DNA of 64,000 nucleotides, from the NCBI GenBank assembly GCA_903813345.2, contig CAIIXF020000010.1, positions 30,312,828 to 30,376,827 of the forward strand. The letters are read 5' to 3'. The translations under genes and the position numbers were made by a program. Of the stretch, positions 2,812 through 31,425 are shown piece by piece; within the stretch, counting starts at the first letter, position 1, and every line of letters begins with the position of its first letter. The notes under the pieces are model-generated. The model was not told the DNA's origin, did not search any database, and worked only from the letters and a program-made list of their open reading frames with translations. This DNA comes from Owenia fusiformis (taxonomy: Eukaryota; Annelida; Polychaeta; Sabellida; Oweniidae).

Positions 2812-3760
2812 GACTTTCTTGTATAATTGCACCTAGCACATGTTAATCCCCATATCATTGGTTTGATCATCACCCTAATTGATATGGAGACTTTCTTGTA
2901 TCATTGCACTTAGCACATGTTAATCTCCATATCATTAGTTAGATCATTCTAATGGACCAGGAGACTTTCTTGTATCATTGCACTTAGCACATGTTAATCT
3001 CCATATCATCAGTTTGATCATTCTAATGGATCAGGAGACTGTCTTGTATCATTGCACCTAGCACATGTTAATCTCCATATCATCAGTTTGATCATTCTAA
3101 TGGACCAGGAGACTGTCTTGTATCATTGCACCTAGCACATGTTAATCTCCATATTATCAGTTTGATCATTCTAATGGATCAGGAGACTATCTTGTATAAT
3201 TGCACTTAGCACATGTTAATCTCCATATCATTGGTTTGATCATTCTAATGGATCAGGAGACTTTCTTGTATAATTGACTTAGCACATGTTAATCTCCATA
3301 TTATCAGTTTGATCATTCTAATGGACCAGGAGACTGTCTTGTATCATTGCACCTAGCACATGTTAATCTCCATATCATTGGTTTGATCATTCTAATGGAT
3401 CAGGAGACTTTCTTGTATAATTGACTTAGCACATGTTAATCTCCATATCATTGGTTAGATCATTCTAATGGATCAGGAGACTTTCTTGTATAATTGTACC
3501 TAGCACATGTTAATCTCCATATCATTGGTTTGATCATTCTAATGGATCTGGAGACTTTCTTGTATAATTGCACCTAGCACATGTTAATCTCCATATCATC
3601 AGTTTGATCGTTCTAATGGACCAGGAGACTGTCTTGTATCATTGCACCTAGCACATGTTAATCTCCATATCATCAGTTTGATCGTTCTAATGGATCAGGA
3701 GACTTTCTTGTATCATCGCACCTAGCACATGTTAATCTCCATATGATTAGTTTGATCACC
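2812..3760 (-). repeat. 74-bp tandem array A, derived from the channel's 3' coding end
   Basis: There are about 13 units of roughly 74 bp (some 72), each containing AGCACATGTTAATCTCCATA on the plus strand. A degraded lead-in starts near 2700. On the minus strand the unit reads as the end of DEG/ENaC membrane helix 2 and the cytoplasmic tail (IKLIIWRLTCAR). The unit nearest the gene is the coding one, and copy A's stop codon (3673-3675) sits inside the array. Length 74 is not a multiple of three, so successive units change frame. Confidence 0.9.
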
Positions 3761-5583
3761 ACGCCGATTATATAGAGAGCTTCGACAACCGAGACCACAG
3801 ACATACCCAGATAGAAACCAAACACGTTCCCAATGTCCGTCATTACATTGTCATAAGTGTAAGTCCTTTCCTCGAATACAGTCCTCACATCGAGAGACTC
3901 GAAATGAATATTTAGTTTCATGAAGTTTTGATCCATTACCTTGTCCAAAGCGTTTGTTAAAGTAAATCTTGAATTCCCGAACGTGTATCGCATTGATTCA
4001 TGTGTAGGGGGAGGTATATAGATCCTATACCTTTGAGCTCTGGTTGCGACGTGAAAACAAAATTCTATCAATTCAAGTGGAGCATTTTCGCATGAATGTG
4101 ATGTCCTGTAAAACCGTGAACTAGTGTCGAGAAGCTTATACAGAAGATTTTTCGTCTTGGGATGTCGCTGTAGAAATTTGAACAACCCTCTGTGGTGTCC
4201 GCGTTCAACAACTTTTTTTTGGGGCCATGGGATAGTGTTAATTAAATGTGTGTATGTATTTTCCTTGCATGAGCTTTTGCATTTGCACGATGTTCTTTCG
4301 CTCATCAACCCTTGCTCACATCGCAGTCTTTCTATTATGCTGTTTGAGATCTTGAAAAGTTCTTTTATGTCACCTGATATTTTACAATTGGGCCATGTTG
4401 GTTTAACAAAAACTTTCAAGAGTAGCTCAGACATGTTTCCACAAAATGGTGTTTTCGTGAAGTTATGCTTGGTTGGAGTAATGAACATTGGTGAGATGCA
4501 GCCACACCTTTTAGCGATTCTCTCTTGTATATACTGATCAACACATGGATCGTAAGAATACCCATACGTAGTATTTGTAATGTAACCTACATCAGTACAT
4601 CCACCATATGGAGGCAGAAGTCGTGTACGCGTTTCTTGTGTTATCCCGACGGATGAAAATCGGCCAGGGCATATGTAAAATCCTTCATTGTATGGTCTTG
4701 GCATTGTCTCTGGTTTGTGTAGAACAACTTGAACACCATCACTTGGTGTCGCAAATATTGTAGTGAATCCGTCTCTTACCTCCTTATTCGAATTAACTGA
4801 TGACAATGGATTTGCCCGGCCTGTGTACAGAATTAATGCAATGCCCTTATCAGGCCCGATTTCGTTCACATAGTCATTTGGTTCACTCAAAGTCAATGTA
4901 AAACATTGCCCATATACAGTATTGGTTCTTGTGATGTTCATCTGTGATTTGCACGGCTTATTGTTATATGTACATTCGAGGATGAAGTCTTCAAGTTTAA
5001 TAGGAGTTGCAAAAGTCTCATAGTCGATTGGTACATTTTCAACAAGCCATCCACTTGAAATCAGTTTGTGCCGTAACTGAAAAATATCTTGTAAAGGTAA
5101 GCAGCCTCTCTCATATTTGTCAATTTTTCTGATTGTATGGGCATCATAGCTTTCCTCTGGCTGGAATATAACTTTATACGAACAGTCCAGCATGTGCACA
5201 CGTGTCCACAATTTTTCAGTAAAGTTCTTGAGTTTTCCCCGGACTTTTGGGTTAATATCGCGCATGTAGTTAGGTATGAACGGATATAACGTGACTGCAG
5301 GAAATGCTAATGGCTGAGTGGTCACAGATATGCCATCTTCTACAGGGTACGAGTAAAACTTTACAACGACACTGGCTATCAGACTCACTGCCATGGAAAC
5401 CGTTCCAAGGAAAATAATAGTACATGTTATGGTGGACAATTTTTCTTTTGCTTTGAGTATTCTTTTTGGTCCATGTATGGATGTCATTTCAGAACATTCT
5501 GCCAACGATGAACTGATCTTCCTTCGAAATGATTTCATTTGGTCGCTTTGTGTTGCTATGGTTGCAGGCTTGTTGTGAGACAT
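3673..5583 (-). CDS. DEG/ENaC-family cation channel, copy A
   Basis: A trimeric, amiloride-sensitive type Na+ channel subunit of the plasma membrane. The frame is open from 5709, but the first in-frame ATG is at 5583, giving about 636 residues with no intron. Visible hallmarks: the N-terminal gating motif SIHG; membrane helix 1 (LSTITCTIIFLG to KFY); the post-helix motif FPAVTLYPF; a large Cys-rich ectodomain with RCGC and CKCKSSCKENTY; a WP motif; and helix 2 with selectivity-filter GMS followed by VVSVVE. Oddities: the family Cys after FPAVTL is Tyr, and CVDQY replaces the CVDQC of copy B, so two conserved cysteines are gone. The last ~25 codons are the first unit of the 74-bp array. An upstream frame (5709-6023) looks like the true N-terminus, cut off by a one-base deletion. 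The ligand (peptide, acid or other) cannot be told. Confidence 0.85.
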   Translation of the reverse strand: MSHNKPATIATQSDQMKSFRRKISSSLAECSEMTSIHGPKRILKAKEKLSTITCTIIFLGTVSMAVSLIASVVVKFYSYPVEDGISVTTQPLAFPAVTLYPFIPNYMRDINPKVRGKLKNFTEKLWTRVHMLDCSYKVIFQPEESYDAHTIRKIDKYERGCLPLQDIFQLRHKLISSGWLVENVPIDYETFATPIKLEDFILECTYNNKPCKSQMNITRTNTVYGQCFTLTLSEPNDYVNEIGPDKGIALILYTGRANPLSSVNSNKEVRDGFTTIFATPSDGVQVVLHKPETMPRPYNEGFYICPGRFSSVGITQETRTRLLPPYGGCTDVGYITNTTYGYSYDPCVDQYIQERIAKRCGCISPMFITPTKHNFTKTPFCGNMSELLLKVFVKPTWPNCKISGDIKELFKISNSIIERLRCEQGLMSERTSCKCKSSCKENTYTHLINTIPWPQKKVVERGHHRGLFKFLQRHPKTKNLLYKLLDTSSRFYRTSHSCENAPLELIEFCFHVATRAQRYRIYIPPPTHESMRYTFGNSRFTLTNALDKVMDQNFMKLNIHFESLDVRTVFEERTYTYDNVMTDIGNVFGFYLGMSVVSVVEALYIIGVVIKLIIWRLTCARCDDTRKSPDPLERSN

Positions 5584-6023
5584 GTGAGAGGACTCTGTTC
5601 CTGAAGTGGATGCAGAGATGTTTGGATCATCCTGGATCTTATTTTCCACGCTAAGCTCAATCTTGTTCTCAACATGATCCTTATTTCTATGTGAATCTTG
5701 ACCAAGCAAGTATCAATAAGAACGCCTTCACGTAAATGCATATCATTTCTGGTGGTTGATTCTTGTTTTTGAACGTCACAACTGAATTCATTTGTATGTT
5801 CTCTGCGTTGGTCTATCTCAATTGAGGATTTGTTTTCCTCCTGTCGATTTTTATCAAAATCGTTTACCTCCTGGTGGCCAGTTTCTACTACAGAACTTGG
5901 GTAAAGATGTTCTTCTGAGTAACGCTGTTTGTTAGTTTCTGCCCCAGTTTCTACTATGTCAGTCATTTTTGTGTTCTTCACGAAGGAAATGTGTTGCCTA
6001 CTTATATCTTCTTCGAAATCCAT
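5556..6023 (-). pseudogene. Frameshifted N-terminal extension of DEG/ENaC copy A
   Basis: An open frame starts at ATG 6023 (MDFEEDISRQ...) and is rich in Glu, Asp and Asn, as an N-terminal cytoplasmic region would be. Aligning it with copy B (22090-22260) shows the same order of words (ACCACC.AAATGAT, GTTGATACT or ATTGATACT, GTCAAGA, AAATAAGGATCA). Copy A has one base fewer just after GATACT, near 5705-5712. After that point the channel continues in another frame. Either copy A lost its N-terminus or translation now starts at 5583. A sequencing error could also explain it. Confidence 0.6.
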
Positions 6024-6465
6024 TTGGCCAGGATTACAGTGCTTAGAAGTTCTCCGCTGCTTCGTATTTTTGTATTTCCTGTCAGTATATTACAAGGTTA
6101 GTTGTTAAGTCGAGGAGTATTTTCGTGTGAGAGATATTATGACAACTGACTAATATAAAGTGATACCCTTGTCACTGCTGTTTGATACTTTTGACGAAGT
6201 CCATGTATATGCATATTTTATGTGGATTTTATGGCCTGGATGTGGCAACTTTGACATTACATGTACATATGCACCCAAATAGAACTGCAGCTATAAATTC
6301 ATGATTAGAATTTCGTAATTACATCGGTATTTGTAACACGCAAAGAAGACCATACGTGATCATAGGCATATATTCATCTGAGTTAGAAAATTAACAAATG
6401 CCAACTAACTGGCGTCCTCATACCTTTTTAAAACCCCTACCTCTGTTATGTTTCATCCAAATATC
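6024..6465 (-). promoter_or_regulatory. Upstream region of copy A, duplicated at copy B
   Basis: Read on the minus strand, this block matches 20230-20560 over many long words, for example GTTACAAATACCGATGTAAT and TCATAATATCTCTCACA / TTATAATATCTCTCACA. The duplicated unit therefore carried its 5' flank, presumably promoter and 5' UTR. Similarity ends near 6465 and 20230, which marks the breakpoint. Confidence 0.65.
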
Positions 6466-7480
6466 GAATTATCTATTTCTAATCACGAGTATTTAGTTTA
6501 CTTTTCAAGATATCAGTGTCCAATTGTACAAAATTTTCCAGTGTCTAATTTTTTTTGAAATTCATCGCTATTCACTTGCTTTATCAAAATAAGGCAAAAT
6601 ACTCACAAGCATTGCACACTGTCTTATGTCATTTTGCCTAGAAGGCAGCCATTTGCAAAAATGGCCACCATTTTTACGTGTGTCCTTTCACATTTTTATA
6701 TTTTACATTTTAAAACTCAAAGAAGTAGTGGAATGGGTTTGTTGAAATTTTATATGCCGTTACTTAAAGGGTTCCGATTAGCATCCCGTATAAAACAATA
6801 TGGCGGTTCCAGGCGAATCAACTGGATCAGTCCATTTTTAAGAAATAAGGGGAGTTCTGTAAAATCCAGTTTATTGAAATTGTCTTTGAGATAAAGTAAT
6901 CCGTTTATAATGATTTTGAAAACGTTATCCAAAGAGTGATTGCGTTCAAAGAATACATGTACAACAGCCAATATAAATCCTTGTATTAGAAACCGGTTTG
7001 TCTTGCTTTGTTTTATTTGTAGCATATTTCATATGCCAAGCTGTGTGCTATTACGTTATGGGGAAATTTAGATGCCAACTTTACCTTATTGTACACAAAT
7101 AGAAGATCCTGAAACTTCACCCATAAATGTGGAATTGATTTGTCAAAATAAAAATCACCCATTTATAAATGTGTGACGATCTATAATATACTTATGCTAT
7201 ATAACAGTGAGTTAGAGGTGTTGACACAACGACCTCGAACCTGTGAACCCTTGAGTATTATTCCGGGATCGGGCCTTTTATACTAAACGGTGGCAACACC
7301 AGAAACGAGCGTTCGATTTGCTAAACGATATGCGTCACCCTTTAAAAGCACATTATACATTCTTATGATAATTTGACTAGTGAGTGACCATTTTGAAAAA
7401 TGATGGCCATTTTATGTGCGTTATTTTAGAATTTTTGCTATAACTGAAAAAGTAGTAGAGGGATTTCGTAAAACGGACTG
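6466..7480. other. Intergenic, no gene seen
   Basis: AT-rich sequence with only short, unconvincing frames on both strands. The words TTTGCAAAAATGGCCACCAT and TGACCATTTTGAAAAATGATGGCCAT hint at a degraded inverted pair between about 6650 and 7410, but I could not define ends. Confidence 0.3.
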
Positions 7481-7481
7481 T

Positions 7482-7603
7482 CTCCCGTACAGACAATTGT
7501 CGGTACTGGAGACTGCCCAGTGAGTATTTGCTAACGCACCGACAATTGTCGGTACATGGAGACTGCCCAGTCAGTATTTGCTCCCGTACCGACAATTGTT
7601 GTC
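7482..7603. repeat. 50-bp tandem repeat with palindromic core
   Basis: Two and a half units of 50 bp begin at 7482, 7531 and 7581. Each has CTCCCGTACCGACAATTGTC or a variant, then GGAGACTGCCCAGT and CAGTATTTG. The core CCGACAATTGTCGG (7539-7552) is a perfect 14-bp palindrome. Function unknown. Confidence 0.7.
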
Positions 7604-7690
7604 ACTCTATCGTCTTCTAGTAGGGCAAGATAGAGGACCGACATTTTCAAAAATAAATACACTAGTTTCACTTTTGTCTGTATCTTTTAC

Positions 7691-7723
7691 TGATAGTGTA
7701 GTGGTTACCGAGTTCGATTCCCG
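7691..7723 (+). repeat. tRNA-like relic
   Basis: TAGTGTAGTGGTTA resembles the A-box region of a tRNA and GAGTTCGATTCCCGC the B-box/T-arm, but they are nearly adjacent. There is no room for an anticodon arm, so this is a deleted tRNA or tRNA-derived SINE piece and not a working gene. Confidence 0.45.
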
Positions 7724-7860
7724 CTTTCGGATGCATTTTTCTGTGTCTAGACAATACATTTTGCTTTTTTGCGGACCCAGTTTTGAAATTGTTCTTTTTA
7801 TTTCTTTTTATATCAGTATCCAATATTTAATAAGATGAATATCAAAGCACAAACTAAGGG

Positions 7861-8907
7861 GGGAAACGACCCAGTTCTCCATAGAGTGCTAGTGTTGCAG
7901 TTGATGTTTTCACACCGAGAATGCTTTTTAAAAAGGACAAGTGAATAGTTTCAAGTGACTTGATATATTTTTTTACTTGACCATATTTCTAAACCATACA
8001 TCAAAATTTGTTGGACAAGTGAATCGAATAAATGTTAGGAAACTGATATATGGGAATGTCATTGAACTTGTGATATTGTTGCTTTATTTTGAATTAAGCT
8101 TTTCTAGATTGTTCTTTAAGATAGCATATTGTTTATCAAAATTATTTTTCCTGTTGAAAATACACCCTAGATATTTGTAGTCTACAACACATGCAATCAC
8201 TTCACTATTGAATTGAAAAGTTTCACCTAATTTAGAGTTAAAAATAATGGCTTTTGTTTTAACAGTGTTGACAACAAGATGATAGTTTCAGCTAAAATCA
8301 AAGAGAGAGTCTACCATTGACTGAGCACTAGATTTAGAGCTAGCTATTAATACTAAATCATCAGCCCAAGGTAGATGATTGAAAGAAACACTTTCAAACT
8401 CTATACCATGTTCTAAGGGGAGACAATCTTTCAAGTCATCCAAAAAATGGTTTAAAAGATATGTACTGATAACATAGCCCTGCATGACTCCCATTTCAGT
8501 ATTGTTGTAGGTTGGGGGTAAAGCCATCTTTAAGTTTGAGACATGATTTCGATTTTTTGTACATAATTTATAAAGAAGTGCTGTCCTGTTGACATAATCA
8601 AACGCTTTCCTAAAATCTACAATTATACAATAAAGAGGCCTTTTCTGTCTCTTAAAATGTGAAATAATGGTATTTAAAATGAACAAATTATCTGTCGTAC
8701 GGTGACCAGATTTGTAAGCCCCTGTAATGGGTCTTGAATATAGAGCATTTCTGCATTGAACACTAAATCTTGATTGAATGATTGTATCAAAAACATAACA
8801 AGCAAGCACAATGATTCCTGTGTAATCATCTGGATTGAAACGTGATCATTGTTTGTAAAGAGTGGAGAGAATTCCAATACTGAGTATACAGAAACTGTTT
8901 TGCCCAA
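7861..8907 (-). pseudogene. LINE reverse transcriptase remnant
   Basis: Minus-strand frames with stops and frameshifts line up with the RT domain of a non-LTR retrotransposon. In order: FNPDDYTGI (8870 region), FRKAFDYVNRTALLYKL (motif A), MQGYVIS (degraded motif B), LPWADDLVLIA (motif C, with Trp in place of Tyr in YADD), then past an in-frame TGA VNTVKTKAIIFNSK and YKYLGCIF, and in other frames ILMYGLEIWSS and KSILGVKTSTATLALYGELG. The longest open stretch is 8288-8809. There is a deletion between motifs A and B. No endonuclease or ORF1 is seen, so this is a dead 5'-truncated copy. The clade (CR1, Jockey or similar) is uncertain. Confidence 0.8.
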
Positions 8908-9223
8908 ATATGGATATATTTCAGAAAACGTGTAAAAGTGTTAATGTATAAATGTTAATATCAAAACAAAACAGAAAGCTATATCTACATAATATATTGA
9001 AATAATATGAAGTATTCAATTGCATTAAAAGTTTAAGTGATCAGATTGGCTTATTTATTGTGAATATCTTTTTTACAGAATCCATTTAAATACATTCTGA
9101 AGAATCACACGCTTTGATATCGAAGGCATTTTTAAACACCACATACATGAATCCATACAGCATACTCCCCAACTATCATTACATGAAAATATCATTCGAT
9201 GATTTGTCATAAAATACATAATA

Positions 9224-10277
9224 CAAGGGGCGATCCATATATTCTGATAAAAATGCTCTCATTTTGTGATTTTTTCACATATCCCTTTCATTTTTTCAGA
9301 ACATGTAGATTATGTAATTACACATACGATGCTAAAATATTTTAGCTGTATCTTAAAATTAATTTTGAAATAAGGTTGCCATGGTAACTTGTATTTAGGG
9401 TAGGCAGGTCAGTTAAATTATAACGTCTAAAATAGATAAATATGTTAATTTAATCATTCCTCTGTACCTATTTTAAGCAGATCAAACCCATCTTCCAGTC
9501 ATTGTCAACTATTCATTGATCTGTTCCATACCCCTGTTGCCCTTGTTTGATAATTTATACAGTGGGATAGCTATCTTTTCATAAGTAACATCTCAATTTA
9601 TCGTAGTGTTATTCTCTGTCCGCAAGCTCTTCTTGCAACCAGATTGCGGATGATCTTCAACAGTGACCATGCTTTCCTCTTTACAATACCACCTATATAT
9701 TCTTTATGCAGATATAACACCTTGCCCTTGCACTTTATGAGTCCATGTATGTCTCTGACAGTGTCCTCTTACTTATTCTTGAAAGAAAATCAAATCTAAT
9801 GGTATTCCCTAATGTATCCGTTAATGTGACACTCTGCATCTGCCACACTAACCTAATCTGACAATTTGATTTTTGGTGTGTCTCATAACATGTAATGTCA
9901 ATTGGCCCATTCTGTCCTACAATGCTATTGTGATTTGTTGTGATGTTATAGTGAGCACATATAAACATTTGTTTAGCAGCAAACAACGAGTAACAATACC
10001 AAACCTTTTTAGACAAAATGCATGATTTCCACATGCTTTAAAATAATTAAAATAACAAGTTATTTTGATATTTATATGTTATAATTAAATTGACCTGCCT
10101 ACCCTTAATACAGGTTACCATGGCAGCCTTATCTCATTGATAATTTAAGATATAGCTATAATATTTTAGCATTGTATGTGTAATTACACACTCTACATTT
10201 TCTGAAAAAATGAGAGGGATATGTGAAAAAATCACAAAATGAGAGCATTTTTATCAGAATATATGGATCGCCCCTTG
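9224..10277. mobile_element. Non-autonomous Tc1/mariner-type inverted-repeat element
   Basis: The element is 1,054 bp with imperfect terminal inverted repeats of about 205 bp (9224-9430 and 10072-10277), starting CAAGGGGCGATCCATATATT. Both ends are flanked by TA (9222-9223, 10278-10279), as expected for Tc1/mariner insertion. The interior has only an unconvincing 99-codon minus-strand frame and no transposase motif. Each arm carries a palindrome of the form GTTRCCATGGYARC (9375-9388, 10114-10127). Confidence 0.8.
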
Positions 10278-10429
10278 TATATATGGTGCTGTATTTCAGA
10301 TTTTTTATGGTGCTATGTTTTCTTGGTTTTATGCAAATTATTTGTAAATTCCAAGGGAATGATGAATAAGTATGACCAGTGAATACCATCAGGAATTCCA
10401 TGACAAGTGACCTGATTTTGACAAATCAT

Positions 10430-11762
10430 ACAAATAAATTGCTAGCTCGGCAGTAACACAATACTCATACATATTAAGTTGACCTGATTTTGACCAAGCA
10501 TGCAATTAAATTGCTAGCTTGGCAGTGACATAATAATCATACATATTAAGTTGACTTGATTTTGACCAAGCATACAATTAAATTGCTAGCTTGGCAGTGA
10601 CATAATAATCATACATATTAAGTTGACTTGATTTTGACCAAGCATACAATTAAATTGCTAGCTTGGCAGTGACATAATAATCATACATATTAAGTTGACC
10701 TGAATTTGACCAAGCATACAATTAAATTGCTAGCTTGGCAGTGACATAATAATCATACATATTAAGTTGACCTGAATTTGACCAAGCATACAATTAAATT
10801 GCTAGCTTGGCAGTGACATAATAATCATACATATTAAGTTGACTTGATTTTGACCAAGCATACAATTAAATTGCTAGCTCGGCAGTGACATAATAATCAT
10901 ACATATTAAGTTGACTTGATTTTGACAAATCATACAAATAAATTGCTAGCTCGGCAGTGACACAATACTCATACATATTAAGTTGACCCGATTTTGACCA
11001 AGCATACAATTAAATTGCTAGCTTGGCAGTGACATAATAATCATACATTGATTGTGACCAATCATTCAATTAAATTGCTAGCTTGGCAGTGACATAATAA
11101 TCATACATATTAAGTTGACCTGAATTTGACCAAGCATACAATTAAATTGCTAGCTTGGCAGTGACAGAATATTCACACATATTAAGTTGACTTGATTTTG
11201 ACCAAGCATACAATTAAATTGCTAGCTTGGCAGTGACATAATAATCACACATATTAAGTTGACCTGAATTTGACCAAGCATACAATTAAATTGCTTGCTT
11301 GGCAGTGACATAATAATCACAAATATTAAGTTGACCTGATTTTGACAAATCATACAAATAAATTGCTAGCTCGGCAGTGACAGAATATTCACACATATTA
11401 AGTTGACCTGATTTTGACCAAGCATACAATTAAATTTCTAGCTTGGCAGTGACATAATAATCATACATATTAAGTTCACCTGAATTTGACCAAGCATACA
11501 ATTAAATTGCTAGCTTGGCAGTGACATAATAATCATACATATTAAGTTGACCTGAATTTGACCAAGCATACAATTAAATTGCTAGCTTGGCAGTGACAGA
11601 ATATTCACACATATTAAGTTGACCTGATTTTGACCAAGCATACAATTAAATTGCTAGCTTGGCAGTGACACAATAATCACACATATTAAGTTGACCTGAA
11701 TTTGACCAATCATACAATTAAATTGCTTGCTTGGCAGTGACAGAATATTCACACATATTCAG
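10430..11762. repeat. 72-bp tandem array
   Basis: About 18 units of 72 bp follow the pattern TTGCTAGCTTGGCAGTGACA, then a TAATAATCATACATATTAAG stretch, then TTGACCTGATTTTGACCAAG. Units begin at about 10439, 10511, 10583 and onward. One unit near 11041 is shortened. Variants (CTCGG, CTTGG, CAGAATATTCAC) are shared by non-adjacent units, which suggests block amplification. It lies about 475 bp beyond the 3' end of the Toll-like receptor gene. Confidence 0.9.
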
Positions 11763-12055
11763 TTGTGTTCCTCCAATTGTTCAAGTCAGTTGACATTGTT
11801 GGTTATTTCAAAATCAACAAATCAAAATATATGCATGATATATTTTACAAGTATTTTTATATAATTGGTAATTAACTCTAGCAGAATACGTCCAATTTCT
11901 TTAGAATAAGCAAATTATTTTATATTCACTTTTTGATTTTGATAGTGATTATTGGTACCGTAAAAAAGATTTCCACTAACAGAGGTTTTGCATTACGTTT
12001 AGTATATGAAAAACTTGATTTTGGAAAGTAATATTGTTCTACGTAAAGTGTTGTT
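11763..12055. other. AT-rich spacer, no gene seen
   Basis: Sequence between the 72-bp array and the small repeat in the Toll-like receptor 3' flank. No coding or RNA feature is seen. Confidence 0.3.
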
Positions 12056-12205
12056 GTTGTTCCACTTGAAAAGCGTTTGTGTTCCACTTGAAAAATGTTG
12101 GTGTTCCACTTGAAAAATGTTGGTGTTCCACTTGAAATGTGTTTGAAAAATGTAGGTGTTCCATTTGAAAAAGTGTTTGTATTTCACTTGAAAAGTGTTT
12201 GTGTT
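12056..12205 (-). repeat. Minisatellite in TLR 3' flank
   Basis: Seven or so imperfect copies of a 20-24 bp word (GTTCCACTTGAAAAATGTTG on the plus strand) lie 30-180 bp past the stop codon, probably in the 3' UTR. Read on the minus strand one frame gives repeated FKWNT, but with no sign of selection on it as protein. Confidence 0.75.
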
Positions 12206-12236
12206 ACACCTACATTGTTGTTCTACTTTCCAATTT

Positions 12237-16359: not shown

Positions 16360-17236
16360 ATTGACTGTCACATGCAGTGCACTAAAGCTGATCTAATTAC
16401 ACCCTATTCACTCATTCAATAGTTGAATAGTAAACACAAATGAAATCAATTTTTAAACTCTAACTGGCTTGTCACATGCAGTGCACTAAAGCTGATCTAA
16501 TTACACCCTATTCACTCATTCAATAGTTGAATAGTAAACACAAATGAAATCAATTTTTAAACTCTAACTGGCTTGTCACATGCAGTGCACTAAAGCTGAT
16601 CTAATTACACCCTATTCACTCATTCAATAGTTGAATAGTAAACACAAATGAAATCAATTTTTAAACTCTAACTGGCTTGTTACATGCAGTACACTGAAGC
16701 TGGACTAATTACACCCTATTCACTCATTCAATAGCTGAATTGTAATTCACAAATGAAATCAATTTTTAAACTCTACCTGGCTTGTCACATGCAGTACACT
16801 GAAGCTGAACTAATTACACCCTATTCACTCATTCAATAGTTGAATAGTAAACACAAATGAAATTAATTTTTAAACTCTAACTGACTTGTCACATGCAGTA
16901 CACTGAAGCTGAACTAATTACACCCTATTCACTCATTCAATAGTTAAATAGTAAACACAAATGAAATCAATTTTTAAACTCTAACTGACTTGTCACATGC
17001 AGTACACTGAAGCTGAACTAATTACACCCTATTCACTCATTCAATAGTTAAATAGTAAACACAAATGAAATCAATTTTTAAACTCTAACTGACTTGTCAC
17101 ATGCAGTACACTGAAGCTGAACTAATTACACCCTATTCACTCATTCAATAGTTAAATAGTAAACACAAATGAAATCAATTTTTAAACTCTACATGTTACA
17201 TGCAGTACACTGAAGCTGAACTAATTACAAGCACTC
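16360..17236. repeat. 104-bp tandem array
   Basis: About eight units of 104 bp start near 16368, 16472 and 16576 with TCACATGCAGTGCACTAAAG and continue through TTCACTCATTCAATAGTTGA. The first three units are almost identical; later ones differ in shared ways (GTACACTGAAGCTGAAC). Each unit holds the short palindrome TTCAATAGTTGAA. The last unit is broken. Confidence 0.9.
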
Positions 17237-19851: not shown

Positions 19852-20229
19852 AATATAATTATCAGATTTTGTTCTTGTTTTTGCGTGTAAATACTGATCT
19901 AATCTGATTATTACTAATCATATTCATTACTGTTTCATCATTATTATTTCAAACACAATTAGGCCTAATATGATTGTCTACATGGAAGCAGTTTACTGAC
20001 TGGTTATACTGACATATCCAGGGGCTGAGATTATTAATTCTTGTGGACTACTTTTCATTTGGTGATTTAAAGTATAAGCTGACTGCGCTAAAAGATATAA
20101 CCCCTTTTATATATTTTCGAGGAACCAATGTTTGTGATATCAAAAGAAAGAAAACATGTAAATCATTCATCCTAATTAAGAAAATAGCAAATGTATATAA
20201 AAAAGTGACCCATAATGAGAAATATATTA
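19852..20229. other. Intergenic, no gene seen
   Basis: Short AT-rich stretch between the mariner-type element and the duplicated channel flank. No feature recognised. Confidence 0.3.
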
Positions 20230-20686
20230 TTTGATACATAACGGCCGGAGGTAGGGGTTTCAAAAAGGTCAATGACGCCTGTTAGTCGACGTGGGCGCTT
20301 GTTAATTTTCTAACTAAGATGAAAATATGCCCATGATCACGAATGGTCTTCATTGCGTGTTACAAATACCGATGTAATTAAAAATTCTAATCCTGAATTT
20401 ACAACTCTGCAATTTGTCTGCATGCAAAATGTCAGCCCCATCTACAGAATACAAAAGTACCCATAATATATGCATACTACGTCATTGGAATGAAACAGCA
20501 GTGACTATGGTATCACATTATATTAGTTAGTGGTTATAATATCTCTCACAAAATAGCCTGTCGCTCGGATGGATACTACCCCAACAATGGGTAAGAACGA
20601 AAAGTGACATACACAGTGAACATACGAGAACAGGAAAATGTCTGACACTAAAAATCAGTGAAGATATTAATGAAGAACGTGATATA
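20230..20686 (+). promoter_or_regulatory. Upstream region of DEG/ENaC copy B (duplicate of 6024..6465)
   Basis: Shares many long words with the inverse of 6120-6465 (GGTAGGGGTTTCAAAAAGGT versus GGTAGGGGTTTTAAAAAGGT; GTTACAAATACCGATGTAAT). It is the copy B counterpart of the presumed promoter. Similarity decays before the inverted-repeat insertion at 20687. Confidence 0.6.
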
Positions 20687-22043
20687 ACACGGGGGATAAG
20701 CAAAACGAGGGCGAAGCCACGGACTGCGACTCGCGTAACTTTACACCGCAGCCCAGCGCCAAAATGGAGGGACATCCGGCAGTGCCTTCTGCTTCTTCCG
20801 ACAAAATAGAGAAATCCAGGTATTTTAAATGCTATCGTAGTGTCTAATCGGTGACCAAAATATTACTCTGTATCTACTGTTGGTCTGTAGATAAGAAAAT
20901 AAGCAGTTGTCCAGATCAAGCTAAAACAGTAGCAAAGTTCTGATTTTACCTGTAAAATATGTGCATATTATTTAATTTACTATACATTTGAAAGGAGTTT
21001 TAACACGTTTCTGATATCTAAAGGTTAGTTGAGGCTCCGAGTATAATTCGTGAAAATGATTTGATAATAGAATGTGTTCATGAGGAGAAAATTAGATTCA
21101 AACTGCGCATTCATAGTGGACGCAGTCCAGTAAACAAAGCTATTTCAACAACGCAACACAGCCTCCATTGATATTCTAAGCAACGCAGTCCAGCCGCGAA
21201 TACGAAATAAATAAGATAGTGTAAACTATATTCCTATATTCCTACGCTATTATTGTTTCAGGAAGATATCAGGAAAATATCAAATAATTGGAGCGTTGGT
21301 GAGTTAATGTAATTTTGGATGATCTTTCCAACAGTCCATCAATATTGCTAGCTACCATAAATTTTTATGTTTTCAGCTGTATTTGACAGCTTGTATATAT
21401 TTGCAGAATGGATTGAGACACGATGTAGGTCTATTAAAATAGCCCTTTTTATTCAATTTTGTCCAAAGTTGCTCCATTTTGGCCACACCTGTACACACAT
21501 TGTGCTATCTACCTTTGGCTGTGATTGCGTTCAGCTTCAGATATAAAGCAACACTTGAGTCGCGGACTGCGTTGGGCAGATGGATGGACTGCGACTATTA
21601 TAAATTCCAATTTTCTATGTAATTGTACGTTTTCCGCTTAGGCAAATATCACACGAAGATGTAATTGTAACAACAGTTAACATGAATAATTATATTAATT
21701 CGATGTCATTTCTGATTCCTTTGTTTAAATCGGTATATTAGGGACAAGTATTGACAAAATTACACTTTTTGTGGCAGATTTCGAATTCATTTGTGTTCAT
21801 GCTAAACTATTGGACAGCCGAGAATGCCATTGCAGGTGGAGTATGAATATGTTGATCACCGACTGGAACATACTAGCTATTCTGTAGAATATCCAAACCA
21901 ATAATCTACCCCAAATCCTAACATGCCTTCCAAATTAAGTTTGGACTTACCGCCATTGTTCAGCTATAATGCGTTGTAACCTCGTTTTGAATTACGCGAG
22001 TCGCAGTCCGTGGCTTCGCCCTCGTTTTGCTTATCCCCCGTGT
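20687..22043. mobile_element. DNA transposon relic with 52-bp perfect terminal inverted repeats
   Basis: The left end (20687-20738) and right end (21992-22043) are exact inverted copies for 52 bp, starting ACACGGGGGATAAGCAAAAC. They are flanked by ATA on both sides (20684-20686, 22044-22046), a 3-bp target duplication. The 1,357-bp interior has several GCAGTCC words and one short start-like frame at 20764 (MEGHPAVPSASSDKIEKS) ending at a GT that could be a captured exon. No transposase is seen. It sits in the region corresponding to copy A's N-terminal coding. A PIF/Harbinger-like type would fit 3-bp duplications, but this is not established. Confidence 0.8.
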
Positions 22044-22232
22044 ATAAACTGGCCACCAGAACTTAAGCTTCAAAGATTCAGATAAGAATCTACAGGAAGA
22101 AAATATTCAACTGAAAAACTGGAATTAACCACCACAAATGATCGGGTTTCATATGATGACGTTCATGTTGATACTTTACTTTGTCAAGAGTCATCTGGAA
22201 ATAAGGATCAAGCTGTGACGATTGAGGGCAGC

Positions 22233-22527
22233 ATGGATAAGATCCAGGATGATGCAAACATATCTGCTCCCACTTCAGGAGCAGAGTCATCTCAAAACAA
22301 GACCATAAGGACGCAAGGAGGCCAAATGGAATCACTTCAAAGCAATATCAGACCAACATTAGTAGATTTTGCCGAAACAACATCTATCAATGGGCCAAAG
22401 AGAATCTTGAAAGCAAAAGGAAAATTTTCTACCATAACCTGGACTATTATTTTCTTTGGAATGGTTTCTATGGCAGTTAATCTGATAGCCAGTGTCGTCG
22501 TAAAATTTTACTCGTACCCTGTAGAAG
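22233..22527 (+). pseudogene. DEG/ENaC copy B, 5' coding part (interrupted)
   Basis: The first in-frame ATG is at 22233 (MDKIQDDANIS); the frame is open further upstream but holds no ATG. It encodes the cytoplasmic N-terminus and membrane helix 1 (FSTITWTIIFFG to VVKFYSYPVE), matching copy A closely. The gating motif that reads SIHG in copy A reads SING here, so the conserved His is Asn. Coding stops at 22527 where an LTR retrotransposon begins; the first bases of the LTR supply a stop (GTG TAA). The rest of the gene resumes at 27514. Unless the element is spliced out, which nothing here suggests, only a short N-terminal fragment could be made. Confidence 0.85.
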
Positions 22528-23827
22528 TGTAACAACCCACCAAATTCATATATACTTATAACATAATTTCTCTTATTATTTGGTGTGCTGTTACTGTATT
22601 TATCTCTTTATTTAATTAGATTTTGACTTTAATTGTTTATAAGTTGTATGTTTATATGCATTCAGCTGATATTCACTCTATAAGAAGAATGCCAATCTCC
22701 ACATAAATACTTTTCAGTGATGGCGTATTGATATTAAAGGTACAAATAGTGCAGAATATAGTCCCAGGATTTTATCCAGTAATTACCATTAATTATAAGC
22801 AATTTACTTCAATCACAACTTCTGTATTCAGCGTATTTATGTTAATCATATTTTGGTATCTGTGTTAGGTGTGAAATACTTTTATTTGTTAGGTTAGTTT
22901 ATTAATTCGGCGTAAGGTTTTCCTCAGTTGAGAAGTTTGGTTTGTGTTCTGTTTAGATTTCAACTGTAAGGCTGCTAATGGATATATCTCCTACGTTTCG
23001 ATCGATTTTGCAGTATTCCGACTCTATTGGTGTTAGGTAAATATATATTTGTATTAATCAAATGATGATCAACAAATTGATATATGTTTTATGATATTCT
23101 GTTGCGAGATTTGGCATGAAAGATACCTTGAAATGTATATAATGCTCCGGCCCAAAAGTTGCCCAGGAGCCCCTTTACATCTCCTCTAGTCCCAGGACCA
23201 TGTATCCTATTAGAGAGATGTATTTCCCCTTCCCAAAGTACCCCATAGTCCAGCTTTGCCAGTCTCTGGAAATTCCGGCATTCATATTGCAAATTTCCAA
23301 CCATGTAGCTCGTGTTAGTCACTTGCTAGTCACTTGATAGTCACTTGCTAGTCACTTTCTAGTCACTTGCTAGTCACTTGTTAGCTCGTGTTAGTCACTT
23401 GTTATAATTCGTGCTAGTCATTGTTAGTCCATGTTAGTCACTTTATATAGAAACTTCTCCCAGAACACAGTTTGAATATTCATAACTAATTGTTACTGTA
23501 CTATTGTCATTTTTTTATGTTTTATATCTAAACAATATACACATGTAAATATGTTTCTTTATTTAAAACTTTTGTCGTGTTATATTTCTTTAAGATGATA
23601 TTATTCCCCCCTTTCATGAGACAATTTCCAGTATAATCAAGATGTAGAGATTTTTACCAGAACGCCATCTTTCTTTTGACATAAAAGTTTATTTCTTATA
23701 AGACTCATTGTAAAGACAGATGTTTTACACCCCCCATAATTAACTAAGAATAAAGTTCATAATTTTAACCAATAACATCTCCCTCTCTTTTAACCACGCT
23801 ACCACAACGAGTTGAGGGAATGTTACA
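22528..23827 (+). repeat. 5' LTR
   Basis: 1,300 bp, TGTAACAACC...GAATGTTACA. It contains AATAAA at 23749-23754 and a run of about seven TAGTCACTTG(C/A/T) words (23325-23400). A minus-strand frame of 77 codons lies inside but resembles nothing I know. Confidence 0.92.
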
Positions 23828-23850
23828 CTGGCTGGCAGCGGTGGAATTTT
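23828..23850 (+). other. Candidate primer-binding site
   Basis: TGGCTGGCAGCGG starts 1 base after the 5' LTR, and TGGCAGCGGTGG starts 5 bases after it. Either TGG could pair with a tRNA CCA end. I could not assign the tRNA. Confidence 0.45.
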
Positions 23851-26200
23851 GATAGGTCCCGCCCTATCAAGACCCACGATTTTTGTGATTCTATGTCCGT
23901 TTTTAGTTACCTACAATGAAACTATTCAGACCACCCAGTCCCAATAGCCTACCATAGGGACTGTCCCTTTTGATTGATGAAGTAGTTTTCCCTAAATCTA
24001 CTTCCTGTTATAGTGGCCACCTCCATTATACACCATTATGGTATGTTTTCCCCACCTTGCATACCATATTATTCTAATACAGTGAAACCATCGATACTTG
24101 AACGATGCCCATAAAGGCCTTTGTAACACATTTATAGTGATACATTATATCCCTGTCCATACCTTGTTTGTGAGTTTCTCTTTTTGTTTGTCATGATGGG
24201 CATGATGACCATTTGAGAGATAGCTTGGGTACCGCGGACCCATACGAGGCAATGAACGTCCCTGTAAATGTTACCTTTAAGTCCAAGTACGTCGATCACA
24301 GACTGTGTCCAATAATATCAGTCATGAAATGTGATATATTCCACACTGTATCCCAATCTCTAATAGTCCATGATGTCAATACCCCTGGCATCAATTATAA
24401 CTCATTCTGTTGTCTCTCCACCAACAGAACATGGCACATGTCCTAACCAAAGTGCGTACACCAGACCCGACCCGATAAGTTGAGTATTCAGGTGCTCTTA
24501 TTTAGATAATAAATATAATGTATATACCTGTAAGTAAGATCTCATCCCGGCCCACATGAGATCTTTGTAAATAGTCAAGTGGCCGATGATACGAAATTCA
24601 GGTGTATTATTGCCTATAAGTTTAGGTAGTATTGTCTATATGATTAGGCAGTGTTCTCCACTGTTTGGTTCGAAATAGGGGCTAATGTCAGTGTAATCGC
24701 GAATAGCCTTTGCATATAACGAGACCGAGGGTGGTCTAGATCGAGAGTGGTCTAAAAGCCCACATTTAGCGAGGCAGTTTTGGCCATAACTGTCACCAGT
24801 GGCAATCAATGTCCCATCCCAGGGGAAGTTGAGTGTCAAATATCTGTGGGTAGGGGTTAATATCTTATAGTCAATGTATGTTACTTGTATCCAATATCCA
24901 TGCATTCTGGGTCTGGATTCCCTGAATAGTTCAGAGACTGTATTTGATGTGATGAGGGTCCGATATACCCTTTTAATGTTGTTATTGCCCCGGCCGGGTT
25001 AATTGTCCTGAATAAAAGGAAGTCTGTTATTGAGCTTAAATCCGATGTGGATTGGTGTGAAGTCACACTTACAGATTCTATCGTTCCCGTATAAATTAGT
25101 TCTTATTGATGTATATAGGGCAATTTTCCCATTTGAGTTTGTTACTTTTGGGCAAAGAGCTCAAGGTACAAATGTCCTTTTCGCCAGCTGGAGACTGGTT
25201 AGTAAACAGTAGCCCCTTAGACAATGTAAATAATGTATATAGTCCCAGAACAGTCAGACATTGTTCTAATTGAATTAACAAGGTGGATGTTCTTCAAGTA
25301 GACCAAGTCAGACAAGTAATGTTCTAATAAAGACCGAATTAGCGATAGTCCGATAGTCCCCAGCTGTCCCATTATTCCATATAGTTCCAAAAGATGTAGC
25401 CATTTGTCCCGTGGTGAACGAATTTAAATAAAATTCGAAGTGGAAGGTTTCTATGAAACTTGAATATATATTGTTTCTATGAAACACAATCTCATTATCA
25501 ATCCAAAAGTCCAAGTTAGACCAGATAAGAATGGATGTCCCATAGGAAAATCCCAATGTCCCGAGATACCTGGAAATGAATGAAATAATATTTATCCCAA
25601 TGTTACGAGTTATCCAAGATTGATGACCTGTTAAGGTATCCTGATCCCTGTAGAAATGAGTTGATCATTTCAATTGCCCCTGTATATGAGGAGATGTGTC
25701 CCGTGTCCCTTATTTGTAAGAATATGAAAATTTGGCTTATGTACCGATGGTGTGACCCTGTCCCGTTATTGGTTTACTTTTTGGTGAATTGCTACTACAC
25801 GATAGGATGTCTGTGTAGCAATGTTTCAGGGATGCAGAACAGAAGATGTCAACATAATCAGATGCAAGCTGAAGATTCACCACTACAATTTACAGACCTG
25901 TCGACCTCCGACATATTTTTACGGGAATCTACCGAACATTAAAGAACATTGAGCAATAATCTCAAATGCATGAAGTTTGAACATTTGGTGCATTGACATG
26001 AATAATGGCAGATAATAAACTGCAGTGAATGAACTTTTGAACTTTGATATTGCAGATCCAGAGAAGAAGGCAGCGATATATATACTAGTAGTATAATGAC
26101 AGTGTAAATTACTAAAATTTAAGGTGCTGACATTACATGTTATCAAATTAAGGACTTCCATTTTTATTTTTTAAAGCGTGTTCGGGTCGAACACTTATTA
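23851..26200 (+). other. Interior of the LTR element, no coding region
   Basis: All frames are broken; the longest open stretches are under 100 codons and show no RT (YxDD), zinc-knuckle or integrase pattern. Words such as TGTCCC, AGTCCC and CCAATGTCCC recur often from 23930 to 25760. It resembles a LARD-type large non-autonomous derivative. Confidence 0.6.
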
Positions 26201-26201
26201 A

Positions 26202-26213
26202 AGAGGGAAGCTG
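26202..26213 (+). other. Polypurine tract
   Basis: AAAGAGGGAAGC lies directly before the 3' LTR start at 26214, where plus-strand priming is expected. Confidence 0.65.
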
Positions 26214-27513
26214 TGTAACAACCCACCAAATTCATATATACTTATAACATAATTTCTCTTATTATTTGGTGTGCTGTTACTGTATTTATCTCTTTATTTA
26301 ATTAGATTTTGACTTTAATTGTTTATAAGTTGTATGTTTATATGCATTCAGCTGATATTCACTCTATAAGAAGAATGCCAATCTCCACATAAATACTTTT
26401 CAGTGATGGCGTATTGATATTAAAGGTACAAATAGTGCAGAATATAGTCCCAGGATTTTATCCAGTAATTACCATTAATTATAAGCAATTTACTTCAATC
26501 ACAACTTCTGTATTCAGCGTATTTATGTTAATCATATTTTGGTATCTGTGTTAGGTGTGAAATACTTTTATTTGTTAGGTTAGTTTATTAATTCGGCGTA
26601 AGGTTTTCCTCAGTTGAGAAGTTTGGTTTGTGTTCTGTTTAGATTTCAACTGTAAGGCTGCTAATGGATATATCTCCTACGTTTCGATCGATTTTGCAGT
26701 ATTCCGACTCTATTGGTGTTAGGTAAATATATATTTGTATTAATCAAATGATGATCAACAAATTGATATATGTTTTATGATATTCTGTTGCGAGATTTGG
26801 CATGAAAGATACCTTGAAATGTATATAATGCTCCGGCCCAAAAGTTGCCCAGGAGCCCCTTTACATCTCCTCTAGTCCCAGGACCATGTATCCTATTAGA
26901 GAGATGTATTTCCCCTTCCCAAAGTACCCCATAGTCCAGCTTTGCCAGTCTCTGGAAATTCCGGCATTCATATTGCAAATTTCCAACCATGTAGCTCGTG
27001 TTAGTCACTTGCTAGTCACTTGATAGTCACTTGCTAGTCACTTTCTAGTCACTTGCTAGTCACTTGTTAGCTCGTGTTAGTCACTTGTTATAATTCGTGC
27101 TAGTCATTGTTAGTCCATGTTAGTCACTTTATATAGAAACTTCTCCCAGAACACAGTTTGAATATTCATAACTAATTGTTACTGTACTATTGTCATTTTT
27201 TTATGTTTTATATCTAAACAATATACACATGTAAATATGTTTCTTTATTTAAAACTTTTGTCGTGTTATATTTCTTTAAGATGATATTATTCCCCCCTTT
27301 CATGAGACAATTTCCAGTATAATCAAGATGTAGAGATTTTTACCAGAACGCCATCTTTCTTTTGACATAAAAGTTTATTTCTTATAAGACTCATTGTAAA
27401 GACAGATGTTTTACACCCCCCATAATTAACTAAGAATAAAGTTCATAATTTTAACCAATAACATCTCCCTCTCTTTTAACCACGCTACCACAACGAGTTG
27501 AGGGAATGTTACA
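26214..27513 (+). repeat. 3' LTR
   Basis: 1,300 bp, same length and internal features as the 5' LTR at a constant offset of 3,686 (AATAAA at 27435-27440, TAGTCACTTG run near 27011-27086). No difference was noticed. Confidence 0.92.
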
Positions 27514-29172
27514 GAAGATGGCTTATCTGTGACCACCCAGCCATTAGCATTTCCTGCAGTCACGTTATGTCCGTTCATACCATACTACATGCGCGATATT
27601 AACCAAAAAGTCCGGAGGAAAATCGAGGGCTTTACTGGCGAATTGTGGACACGTGTGCACATGCTGGACTGTTCGTATAAAGTTATATTCCAGCCAGAAG
27701 AAAACTATGATGCCAATACAATCAGAAAAATTGACAAATATGAGAGAGGCTGCTTACCTTTACAAGATATTTTTCAGTTACGGCACAAACTGATTTCAAG
27801 TGGATGGCTTGTTGAAAATGTACCAATCGACTATGAGACTTTTGCAACTCCTATTAAAGTTGAAGACTTCATCCTCGAATGTATATATAACAATAAGCCG
27901 TGCGAATCACAGATGAACATCACACGAACCAATACTGTATATGGACAATGTTTCACACTGACAGTGAATGAACCAAATGACCATGTAAGCGAAATCGGGC
28001 CTGATAAGGGCATTGCATTAATTCTGTACACAGGCCGGGCAAATCCATTATCATCAACAGTTTCAAATTGGGAGGTAAGAGATGGATTCACCACAATATT
28101 TTCGACGCCAAGTGATGGCGTTCAAGTTGTTCTACACAAACCAGGGACAATGCCTAGACCATACAATGAAGGATTTTATATATTCCCTGGCCGATTTTCA
28201 TCCGTCGGGATAACACAAGAAACGCGTACACGACTTCTGCCTCCTTATGGTGAATGTACTGATGCAGGTTACATTACAAATACTACATATGGGTATTCTT
28301 ACGATGTATGTGTTGATCAGTGTATACAAGAGAGAATCGCTAAAAGGTGTGGCTGCATCTCACCAATGTTCATTACTCCAACAAAGCATAACTTCACAAA
28401 AACGCCGTTTTGTGGAAACATATCTGAGCTCCTCTATAACGTTTTTGTTAAACCAACATGGCCAAATTGTAAAATATCAGGTGACATAAAAGAACTTTTC
28501 AAGATCTCAAACAGCATAATAGAAAGACTGCAATGTGAGCAAAGGTTGATGAGCGAAAGAACATCGTGCAAATGCAAACGGCCATGCAAGGAAAATACAT
28601 ACACACATTTAATCAACACTATCCCATGGCCCCAAAAGAAAGTTGTTGAACGCGGACACCACAGAGGGTTGTTCAAATTTCTACAGCGACATCCCAAGAC
28701 GAAAAATCTTCTGTATAAGCTTCTCGACACTAGTTCACGGTTTTACAGGACATCACATTCATGCGAAAATGCTCCACTTGAATTGATAGAATTTTGTTTT
28801 CACGTCGCAACCAGAGCTCAAAGGTATAGGATCTATATACCTCCACCAACACATGAATCAATGCGATATACGTTTGGGAATTCAAGATTTACATTAACTA
28901 ATGCTTTGGACAAAGTAATGGATCAAAACTTCATGAAACTAAATCTTCATTTCGAGTCTCTTGATGTGAGGACTGTATTCGAGGAAAGGACTTACACTTA
29001 TGACAATGTAATGACGGACATTGGAAACGTATTTGGCTTCTATTTAGGTATGTCTGTGGTCTCGGTTGTCGAAGGTCTCATTATAATCGGGGTGATGATC
29101 AAATTAATCATATGGAGATTAACATGTGCTAGGTGCAATTATACAAGAAAGTCTCAGAAAAAGATCCATTAG
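27514..29172 (+). pseudogene. DEG/ENaC copy B, 3' coding part (interrupted)
   Basis: Coding resumes with E-D-G-L-S-V directly after the LTR element and runs open to TAG at 29170-29172. It includes FPAVTLCPF (family Cys kept), the Cys-rich ectodomain with CVDQCIQERIAKRCGC and CKCKRPCKENTY, WP, and membrane helix 2 with filter GMS and VVSVVE. One ectodomain Cys seen in copy A (FYICPGRF) is Phe here. With no other break in about 550 codons, the ectodomain appears to have been under constraint until recently. An internal ATG-like start would lack helix 1 and so should not give a channel. The last codons (IKLIIWRLTCARCNYTRK) are the first unit of the 74-bp array that follows. Confidence 0.85.
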
Positions 29173-31425
29173 ACTAGCTAGATTTGAACGAAATGTGATG
29201 ACCAAACTAATTATATGCAGATTAATATGTGCTAGGTGCAATAATGCAAGATAGTCTCAGATCCATTAGAATGATCAAACTGATGATATGGAGATTAACA
29301 TGTGCAAAGTCAATTATACAAGATAGTCTCCAGATCCATTAGAATGATCAAACCAATGATATGGAGATTAACATGTGCTAAGTGCAATTATACAAGATAG
29401 TCTCCAGATCCATTAGAATGATCAAACCAATGATATGGAGATTAACATGTGCTAAGTGCAATTATACAAGATAGTCTCCAGATCCATTAGAATGATCAAA
29501 CCAATGATATGGAGATTAACATGTGCTAAGTGCAATTATACAAGATAGCCTCTAGATCCATTAGAATGATCAAACCAATGATATGGAGATTAACATGTGC
29601 TAAGTGCAATTATACAAGATAGTCTCCAGATCCATTAGAATGATCAAACCAATGATATGGAGATTAACATGTGCTAAGTGCAATTATACAAGATAGTCTC
29701 CAGATCCATTAGAATGATCAAACCAATGATATGGAGATTAACATGTGCTAAGTGCAATTATACAAGATAGCCTCTAGATCCATTAGAATGATCTAACCAA
29801 TGATATGGAGATTAACATGTGCTAGGTGCAATGATACAAGATAGTCTCCAGATCCATTAGAATGATCAAACCAATGATATGGAGATTAATATGTGCTAGG
29901 TGCAATAATGCAAGATAGTCTCAGATCCATTAGAATGATCTAACCAATGATATGGAGATTAACATGTGCTAAGTGCAATTATACAAGATAGTCTCCAGAT
30001 CCATTAGAATGATCTAACCAATGATATGGAGATTAACATGTGCTAGGTGCAATGATACAAGATAGTCTCCTGATCTATTAGAATGATCAAACTGATGATA
30101 TGGAGATTAACATGTGCTAGGTGTAATTATACAAGACAATCTCCAGATCCATTAGAATGATCAAACCAATGATATGGAGATTAACATGTGCTAAGTGCAA
30201 TTATACAAGATAGTCTCCAGATCCATTAGAATGATCAAACCAATGATATGGAGATTAACATGTGCTAAGTGCAATTATACAAGATAGTCTCCAGATCCAT
30301 TAGAATGATCTAACCAATGATATGGAGATTAAAATGTGCTAAGTCAATTATACAAGATAGTCTCCTGTTCCATTAGAATGATCTAACCAATGATATGGAG
30401 ATTAACATGTGCTAGGTGTAATTATACAAGACAATCTCCAGATCCATTAGAATGATCTAACCAATGATATGGAGATTAACATGTGCTAGGTGTAATTATA
30501 CAAGACAATCTCCAGATCCATTAGAATGATCTAACCAATGATATGGAGATTAACACGTGCTAGGTGCAATTATACAAGACAATCTCCGGATCCATTAGAA
30601 TGATCAAACCAATGATATGGAGATTAACATGTGCTAAGTCAATGATACAAGATAGTCTCCAGATCCATTAGAATGATCAAACCAACGATATGGAGATTAA
30701 CATGTGCTAAGTGCAATTATACAAGATAGTCTCCAGATCCATTAGAATGATCAAACCAATGATATGGAGATTAACATGTGCTAAGTCAATTATACAAGAT
30801 AGTCTCCTGATCCATTAGAATGATCAAACCAATGATATGGAGATAAACATGTGCTAAGTCAATTATACAAGATAGTCTCCAGATCCATTAGAATGATCTA
30901 ACCAATGATATGGATATTAACATGTGCTAAGTCAATTATACAAGATAGTCTCCTGATCCATTAGAATGATCAAACCAACGATATGGAGATTAACATGTGC
31001 TAGGTGCAATTATACAAGATAGTCTCCAGATCCATTAGAATGATCTAACCAATGATATGGATATTAACATGTGCTAAGTCAATTATACAAGAAAGTCCCC
31101 TGGTCCATTAGAATGATCAAACCAATGATATGGAGATAAACATGTGCTAAGTGCAATTATACAAGACAATCTCCAGATCCATTAGAATGATCTAACCAAT
31201 GATATGGAGATTAACATGTGCTAAGTGCAATTATACAAGATAGTCTCCAGATCCATTAGAATGATCTAACCAATGATATGGATATTAACATGTGCTAAGT
31301 CAATTATACAAGATAGTCTCCAGATCCATTAGAATGATCTAACCTATGATACACGGAGATTAACATGTGCTAGGTGCAATTATACAAGACAATCTCCAGA
31401 TCCATTAGAATGATCAAGTGGAACT
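29173..31425 (+). repeat. 74-bp tandem array B
   Basis: About 30 units of 74 bp (some 72, lacking GC in GTGCAATTA) carry ATGATATGGAGATTAACATG and TCCAGATCCATTAGAATGAT. It is the same family as array A, in the opposite orientation, and again downstream of the channel stop. In the coding frame a consensus unit reads IKPMIWRLTCAKCNYTR and then stop. It ends about 30 bp before the next gene's start. Confidence 0.92.

Follow-up and report, generated by a model that had tools for sequence, protein, structure and literature searches.

How can a tandem repeat come to form the end of an ion-channel gene, and did the gene or the repeat come first? The question is raised by a stretch of 64,000 nucleotides (nt) from the annelid Owenia fusiformis (hereafter the window, in whose numbering all positions are given), which carries two DEG/ENaC genes, copies A and B, each ending in an array of units of about 74 bp. 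We conclude that the arrays are probably minisatellites that were seeded by the gene's own 3' end and expanded after a tandem duplication. The unit derives from the gene, and tandem copies of a gene's own end also occur beside other genes of this genome.

Two channel genes and their arrays

An earlier interpretation made from the letters of this DNA alone (the sequence-only reading) had placed arrays downstream of two oppositely oriented DEG/ENaC genes. This arrangement was borne out by Tandem Repeats Finder (TRF), with arrays lying directly 3' of both coding sequences, copy A on the minus and copy B on the plus strand. The genes, arrays, and units that matter most are as follows, with the units of array A numbered in gene sense.

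3670..5712, minus strand: DEG/ENaC copy A, a single 679-codon open frame between stops (3673-5712), closed by the stop codon at 3670-3672
2810..3759, minus strand: array A, period 74, 12.8 copies by TRF, units A1-A13
3686..3759, minus strand: unit A1, the first 74-nt unit, which is copy A from codon 652; the stop codon lies in unit A2
2748..2870, minus strand: unit A13, long type and B1-like, reading ...CARCNYTRKSQKETH and then stop; probable fossil of an older gene end
2674-2747, minus strand: unit A14, degenerate, next after A13
22101..22527, plus strand: copy B, N-terminal part, matching copy A from 22176; open frame inspected from 22101 on
27514..29172, plus strand: copy B, main part, 94.1% identical to copy A over 1641 aligned nt, with a Pfam ASC match and its stop at 29170-29172
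29095..31417, plus strand: array B, units B1-B31, mostly 73 or 74 nt
29095..29197, plus strand: unit B1, 103 nt, the end of copy B, with tail ...CARCNYTRKSQKKIH and then stop

Copy A matches the Pfam ASC profile with an E value of 5.9e-59 (residues 75-647, profile positions 3-454 of 455). The domain includes both membrane helices and, in helix 2, the G-x-S stretch (here GMS) that is a hallmark of DEG/ENaC channels. The best match in the PDB is the FMRFamide-gated channel FaNaC1 (E 2e-32); copy A resembles the channels of solved structure in its ASC match but is distant from them. Over the 1641 nt of the gene bodies, nonsynonymous (dN) and synonymous (dS) divergence between A and B, estimated by the NG86 method, are 0.040 and 0.143. 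Over 351 nt at the N-terminus identity is 80.9%, with dN 0.179 and dS 0.386. Sequence exchange between the copies over the 3' part is possible, the N-terminal stretch compared being short. Copy A ends ...VVEALYIIGVVIKLIIWRLTCARCDDTRKSPDPLERSN and copy B ends ...VVEGLIIIGVMIKLIIWRLTCARCNYTRKSQKKIH, each before its stop.

Both arrays run head to tail, with units within the range of ~10-100 bp that is typical of minisatellites. TRF reports array A at 2810-3758 (period 74, 12.8 copies, 92% matches) and array B at 29198-31417 (period 74, 30.1 copies, 93% matches), and in this one assembly they hold about 13 and 31 units, respectively. Units of B are on average 0.93 identical to one another (435 pairs) and units of A 0.86 (78 pairs), against 0.87 for comparisons across the two arrays (390 pairs); a length filter dropped A13 and B1 from these figures, and the degenerate A14 is included, lowering the values for A. 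Some unit variants, such as a 1-nt deletion that yields 73-nt units, are common to both arrays, so some of the diversity predates the split of A and B or was exchanged later. A tree of the units held too little signal for a branching order. The peptide IKPMIWRLTCA followed by a stop, put forward earlier as a reading of the units in one frame, is found in the later units, in places as a variant. It does not extend to the unit inside the gene, which reads IKLIIWRLTCARC.

The gene as source of the unit

We searched the assembly of 498.3 Mb (525 contigs; the loci studied lie on C1-C12) for the unit in two ways. A 296-base piece of array B gave 15 matches genome-wide and a 23-base core pattern, with at most 2 mismatches, gave 42, all of them within arrays A and B; a backward control of the core pattern gave 0. 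These counts are lower bounds, as the search skips very common words. With both searches finding the unit only in the two arrays, we rejected the idea that an abundant or dispersed satellite had merely been inserted beside the genes.

In both genes the first unit of the array is the gene's own 3' end, amounting to the last 26-28 codons (~25 in the sequence-only reading). Comparison of copy A with its adjoining array by tblastn gives E values down to 2.6e-11 for a single unit, far beyond chance. A tree separates one group of ten genes (A, B, C10:35.03, C11:6.513, C11:6.522, C11:6.526, C2:5.90, C4:7.33, C3:23.02, and C6:4.28) from three outgroup genes. Each of the ten carries K-L where helix 2 ends (K-L-I in seven of them), and eight of these genes are without the 74-bp unit; C11:6.522, for example, ends ...VVEGVYIIGVMIKLIIYRILCRHN and then stop. 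Since paralogues without the unit carry related coding sequence at their own ends, and the unit is seen only here, we conclude that the gene seeded the array. The sequence-only reading had also derived the unit from the gene, and had named two findings that would count against this: an abundant satellite with no link to DEG/ENaC genes, and channels lacking similarity to the unit in helix 2. Neither was encountered, with paralogues standing in for orthologues.

The accompanying statement that a piece of a membrane helix had been amplified was correct as to the gene end but overstated as to the helix. The unit starts at codon 652 of copy A and the Pfam ASC match ends at residue 647, so in our judgement roughly the final turn of helix 2, together with the tail, is all that the unit contains.

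The reverse order of events has a tandem repeat already lying beside the gene, with the gene losing its own end and capturing the repeat as a new C-terminus. It could draw on the tails of A and B, which continue beyond the point at which seven of the eight related genes without the unit differ, and which past a Cys-rich stretch are without counterpart in the paralogues. The first codons of the unit, however, are homologous to the conserved helix 2 end of the paralogues (K-L in ten of ten), unlike a foreign repeat, and the unit was matched nowhere else in the genome. We regard this order as extremely improbable.

Seeding by the gene is also consistent with how the units differ from one another. 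Inside the genes the first codons read IKLII. Once A1, B1, and the degenerate A14 and B31 are set aside, 41 of the 45 units remain; proline occupies the Leu site in 31 of these, and in 13 the codon just ahead of that site, the third, is a stop. With IKLII kept in the genes and proline or a stop in most array units, the in-gene unit looks to be under constraint and the other units free.

Probable tail replacement and reading phase

Two types of tail exist. Units B1 and A13 are both of a long type with the tail KSQK--H before the stop (KSQKKIH and KSQKETH). The long unit sits at the gene in B, as B1, and at the far end of the array in A, as A13, and in both cases a diverged copy is next to it (B2 and A14). 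The tail and stop of copy A now lie within 74-type units. We infer that the long-unit tail is the older gene end and was displaced in copy A by A1, a unit of the 74 type. For copy A this would bear out the earlier suggestion that the array defines the protein's C-terminus, given a tail and stop in 74-type units and a different tail in A13 and copy B.

A related prediction, that the tail would alter with changes in unit number since 74 is not divisible by three, is not supported. Because the array is always entered from unique DNA in the same phase, and because the stop is reached within ~1.2 units in A and inside B1 in B, whole units gained or lost further on leave the tail unchanged. Read from a common ATATGG anchor, the tail would come to 20 residues for 8 of the 14 A units and to 13 for 16 of the 31 B units, with a range of 3-23. 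The identity of the first unit therefore decides the tail, and unit number alone does not.

Recurrence at other gene ends

Of 91 DEG/ENaC 3' ends, 9 had tandem copies seeded at the gene's end, spread over 5 genomic places, as had 1 of 60 G-protein-coupled receptor (GPCR) genes; the window pair itself had prompted this census. The DEG/ENaC count left out L018 and C1:4083727 (whose profile match ends before helix 2), and excluded distant partial copies in L055, L057, L072, and L161 and a 16-nt match in L082. The GPCR genes were taken in list order from 152 matches, with the profile reached to 258-260, no stops, and an open frame of at most 421 codons.

Within the ten-gene subfamily, C10:35.03 (L021 2343-3395) has a 282-bp unit that runs from about residue 580 to past the stop, in 3.7 copies with 99% matches. 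This unit is 94 codons long and holds the helix 2 end, and each full repeat is open for 93 codons; the repeats could serve as an alternative end, or could merely be very recent. In C11:6.522 the last 76 bp are present twice. The loosest case is C11:6.513, whose 3' part (residues ~486-664) occurs a second time, and this extra copy contains a 74-bp duplication. The two C11 genes have a junction in common, ATTGATG followed by TTGTAGAAGG. The remaining five of the ten subfamily genes have no tandem copy of their own end. The window pair, C10:35.03, and the C11 genes fall on separate lines of the tree, though three forks are open, and 6.513 groups with 6.526 (96/97), which has no duplication.

A further 73 DEG/ENaC 3' ends yielded four arrays beginning within the last codons:

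C5:14.807, end-seeded array of 37 bp x 15
C8:19.757, end-seeded array of 38 bp x 5.8, units repeating tail codons and stop
C8:19.760, end-seeded array of 38 bp x 21, units repeating tail codons and stop
C8:19.773, end-seeded array of 42 bp x 19, units repeating tail codons and stop

Eight further relatives (L011, L012, L014, L015, L017, L019, L020, and L028) have no end-seeded array. Period and left edge differ from those of the window arrays in the end-seeded copies at C10:35.03 (282 bp), C11:6.522 (76 bp), C5:14.807 and the three C8 genes (37-42 bp), and one GPCR gene (29 bp). In the single GPCR case (L129 169-707, C3:11566156-11567256), a 29-bp unit in 19 copies starts 45 nt before the stop and spans the last codons and the stop, and we therefore rejected the idea that such arrays are exclusive to DEG/ENaC genes. 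The rates in the two families do not differ significantly by Fisher's test (p 0.09 for 9/91 vs 1/60; p 0.38 for 4/73 vs 1/60). End-seeding is thus recurrent and not exclusive to DEG/ENaC genes, and these counts do not establish enrichment there.

The open repeats of C10:35.03 bear on whether the extra units are put to use, as alternative last exons, small reading frames, or a regulatory 3' untranslated region. Their 94-codon unit would lend itself to such a role, and in the window most units start with ATG and many read MIKPMIWRLTCAKCNYTR up to a stop. Yet the longest stop-free run in the window arrays is 38 codons, on which ground we also rejected a continuous reading frame through the array, and the stops at the third codon (13/41) and the prolines in the helix end (31/41) argue in the same direction. 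We consider use of the extra units very unlikely.

Apparent clustering of array starts at stop codons

The TRF arrays counted had a period of at least 20, a score of at least 50, and a start no more than 60 nt before or 600 nt after the stop. Eleven such arrays belong to the 73 DEG/ENaC genes, and 7 of them start within -60 to +45 of the stop (naive binomial p 0.0005); of the 8 that belong to the 60 GPCR genes, 1 does so (p 0.75). Three of the seven DEG/ENaC starts belong to C8 neighbours and two to C5 neighbours (L031 and L038). Cluster neighbours are not independent, and one count per cluster gives 4 of 8 near the stop, with p about 0.03 by hand arithmetic; the test was also framed after the data were seen.

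This crowding may reflect a favoured site, or arrays that spread up to the edge of constrained sequence. On the first account, the neighbourhood of the stop codon would be a favoured birthplace of arrays in this genome or family, with a mutational or selective cause beyond neutrality. The 7 of 11 starts, at several separate places, point that way. The GPCR count, the dependence within clusters, the post hoc framing, and the p of 0.09 for the overall comparison all point the other way, and we think a favoured birthplace quite unlikely. A broader idea, doubtful though worth stating, is that the stop neighbourhoods of channel genes act as a minisatellite nursery, whose turnover would feed new cytoplasmic tails in a slow switching of tails across the DEG/ENaC family.

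Proposed origin of the arrays

Under the seeding that we favour, the last codons of an ancestral DEG/ENaC gene, encoding the cytoplasmic tail and roughly the final turn of helix 2, would have been duplicated in tandem together with some 3' sequence. With its left edge in the last codons and its right edge past the stop, such a duplication would leave the protein unchanged, and it would be nearly neutral, since translation still runs through the first copy and still comes to a stop. End duplications would persist where in-frame ones would be removed, and could then expand. Expansion and turnover probably followed as in an ordinary minisatellite, by slippage or unequal exchange, up to ~13 and 31 units, with the front of the first unit presumably staying under coding constraint while the other units drifted. 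In copy A, exchange with the array would have swapped the older tail for an array-type tail, which we infer to be the direction of the change. The model would cover the position of the arrays, the constraint on the first unit, and the recurrence at other genes without invoking a special function, with neutrality and the process of expansion both supposed.

Several points weigh against this origin. The state before the array would have to be read from paralogues that are only about half identical, and copy B, being broken, cannot display constraint. The junction common to 6.513 and 6.522 conflicts with the tree, so loss or exchange is needed within the C11 cluster. Finally, the crowding of DEG/ENaC array starts at the stop (7/11) would seem unexpected under plain neutrality.

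Insert in copy B and other repeats

The two parts of copy B are separated by the following feature.

22528..27513: long terminal repeat (LTR)-element-like insert splitting copy B, terminal repeats at 22528-23827 and 26214-27513

The terminal repeats are 1300 bp long and identical (TGTAACA...TGTTACA), and GAAG flanks the insert on both sides, giving the long direct TG...CA repeats and short target-site duplication of an LTR element. The insert lies after the codons for helix 1, and copy B is hence not one open frame. Neither this insert nor the recurrence at other gene ends had been picked up by the sequence-only reading. No gag-pol region was recognized, the longest listed open reading frame (ATG, GTG, or TTG start) over 23400-26300 being 93 codons, and no family search was made. 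The insert thus resembles an LTR element that is non-autonomous and was recently acquired. Both terminal repeats contain an 11-bp tandem repeat (23316-23443 and 27002-27129). An inverted-repeat edge at 5341/27513 was considered as a duplication edge and rejected, as it is the border of the insert.

Other repeats were detected in the window:

10408-11765: 72-bp array x 19, found at one genomic place only
16366-17229: 104-bp array of a dispersed family, with its best outside matches at C8:19781497-19782759, ~9 kb from the C8 DEG/ENaC cluster with end-seeded arrays
55434-56428: 63-bp array with weaker relatives elsewhere, including one at C5:14824271-14824913, ~12 kb from the DEG/ENaC genes at C5:14.80-14.81 Mb
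35185-35601 and 36339-36755: inverted repeat with 417-nt arms, 92% complementary and 737 nt apart

Since the 72-bp array, too, was found at a single place (the 104-bp and 63-bp arrays have relatives elsewhere), a local array seen nowhere else is unexceptional in this window.

Significance and comparison with known systems

In the open-licence literature, searched by title or abstract start, we found no account of arrays that had arisen repeatedly from genes' last codons. Minisatellite births can rarely be observed, since the sequence that served as seed has as a rule disappeared. In the present case that sequence is conserved, coding, and still read, which makes it possible to trace the direction of change, the sequence of events, and the constraint acting on the first unit. 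The 9 of 91 channel cases and the 1 of 60 receptor cases make up a set within one genome for testing the birth of arrays, their spread, and their effect on protein tails. They illustrate how repeats can arise from, and perhaps rewrite, the end of a gene.

A familiar repeat at a gene's end is that of human CEL, which is translated. It is a variable number of tandem repeats (VNTR) located in the last exon, where single-base deletions cause disease. The two systems are alike in having a tandem repeat at the coding 3' end, where changes in the repeat can change the C-terminus. They differ in that here the units are 73-74 nt long and only about the first is translated, with the rest lying past the stop; an array read in frame throughout, as in CEL, was not found, the stop-free runs being as short as stated above. 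Satellites are also known to arise from ribosomal DNA (rDNA) spacers and mobile elements (PMC5615363). Those satellites resemble the arrays of the window in that a local sequence seeds a head-to-tail array. The difference is that here the seed is a translated gene end, still in place as the first unit, and the arrays are local, with 13 and 31 units.

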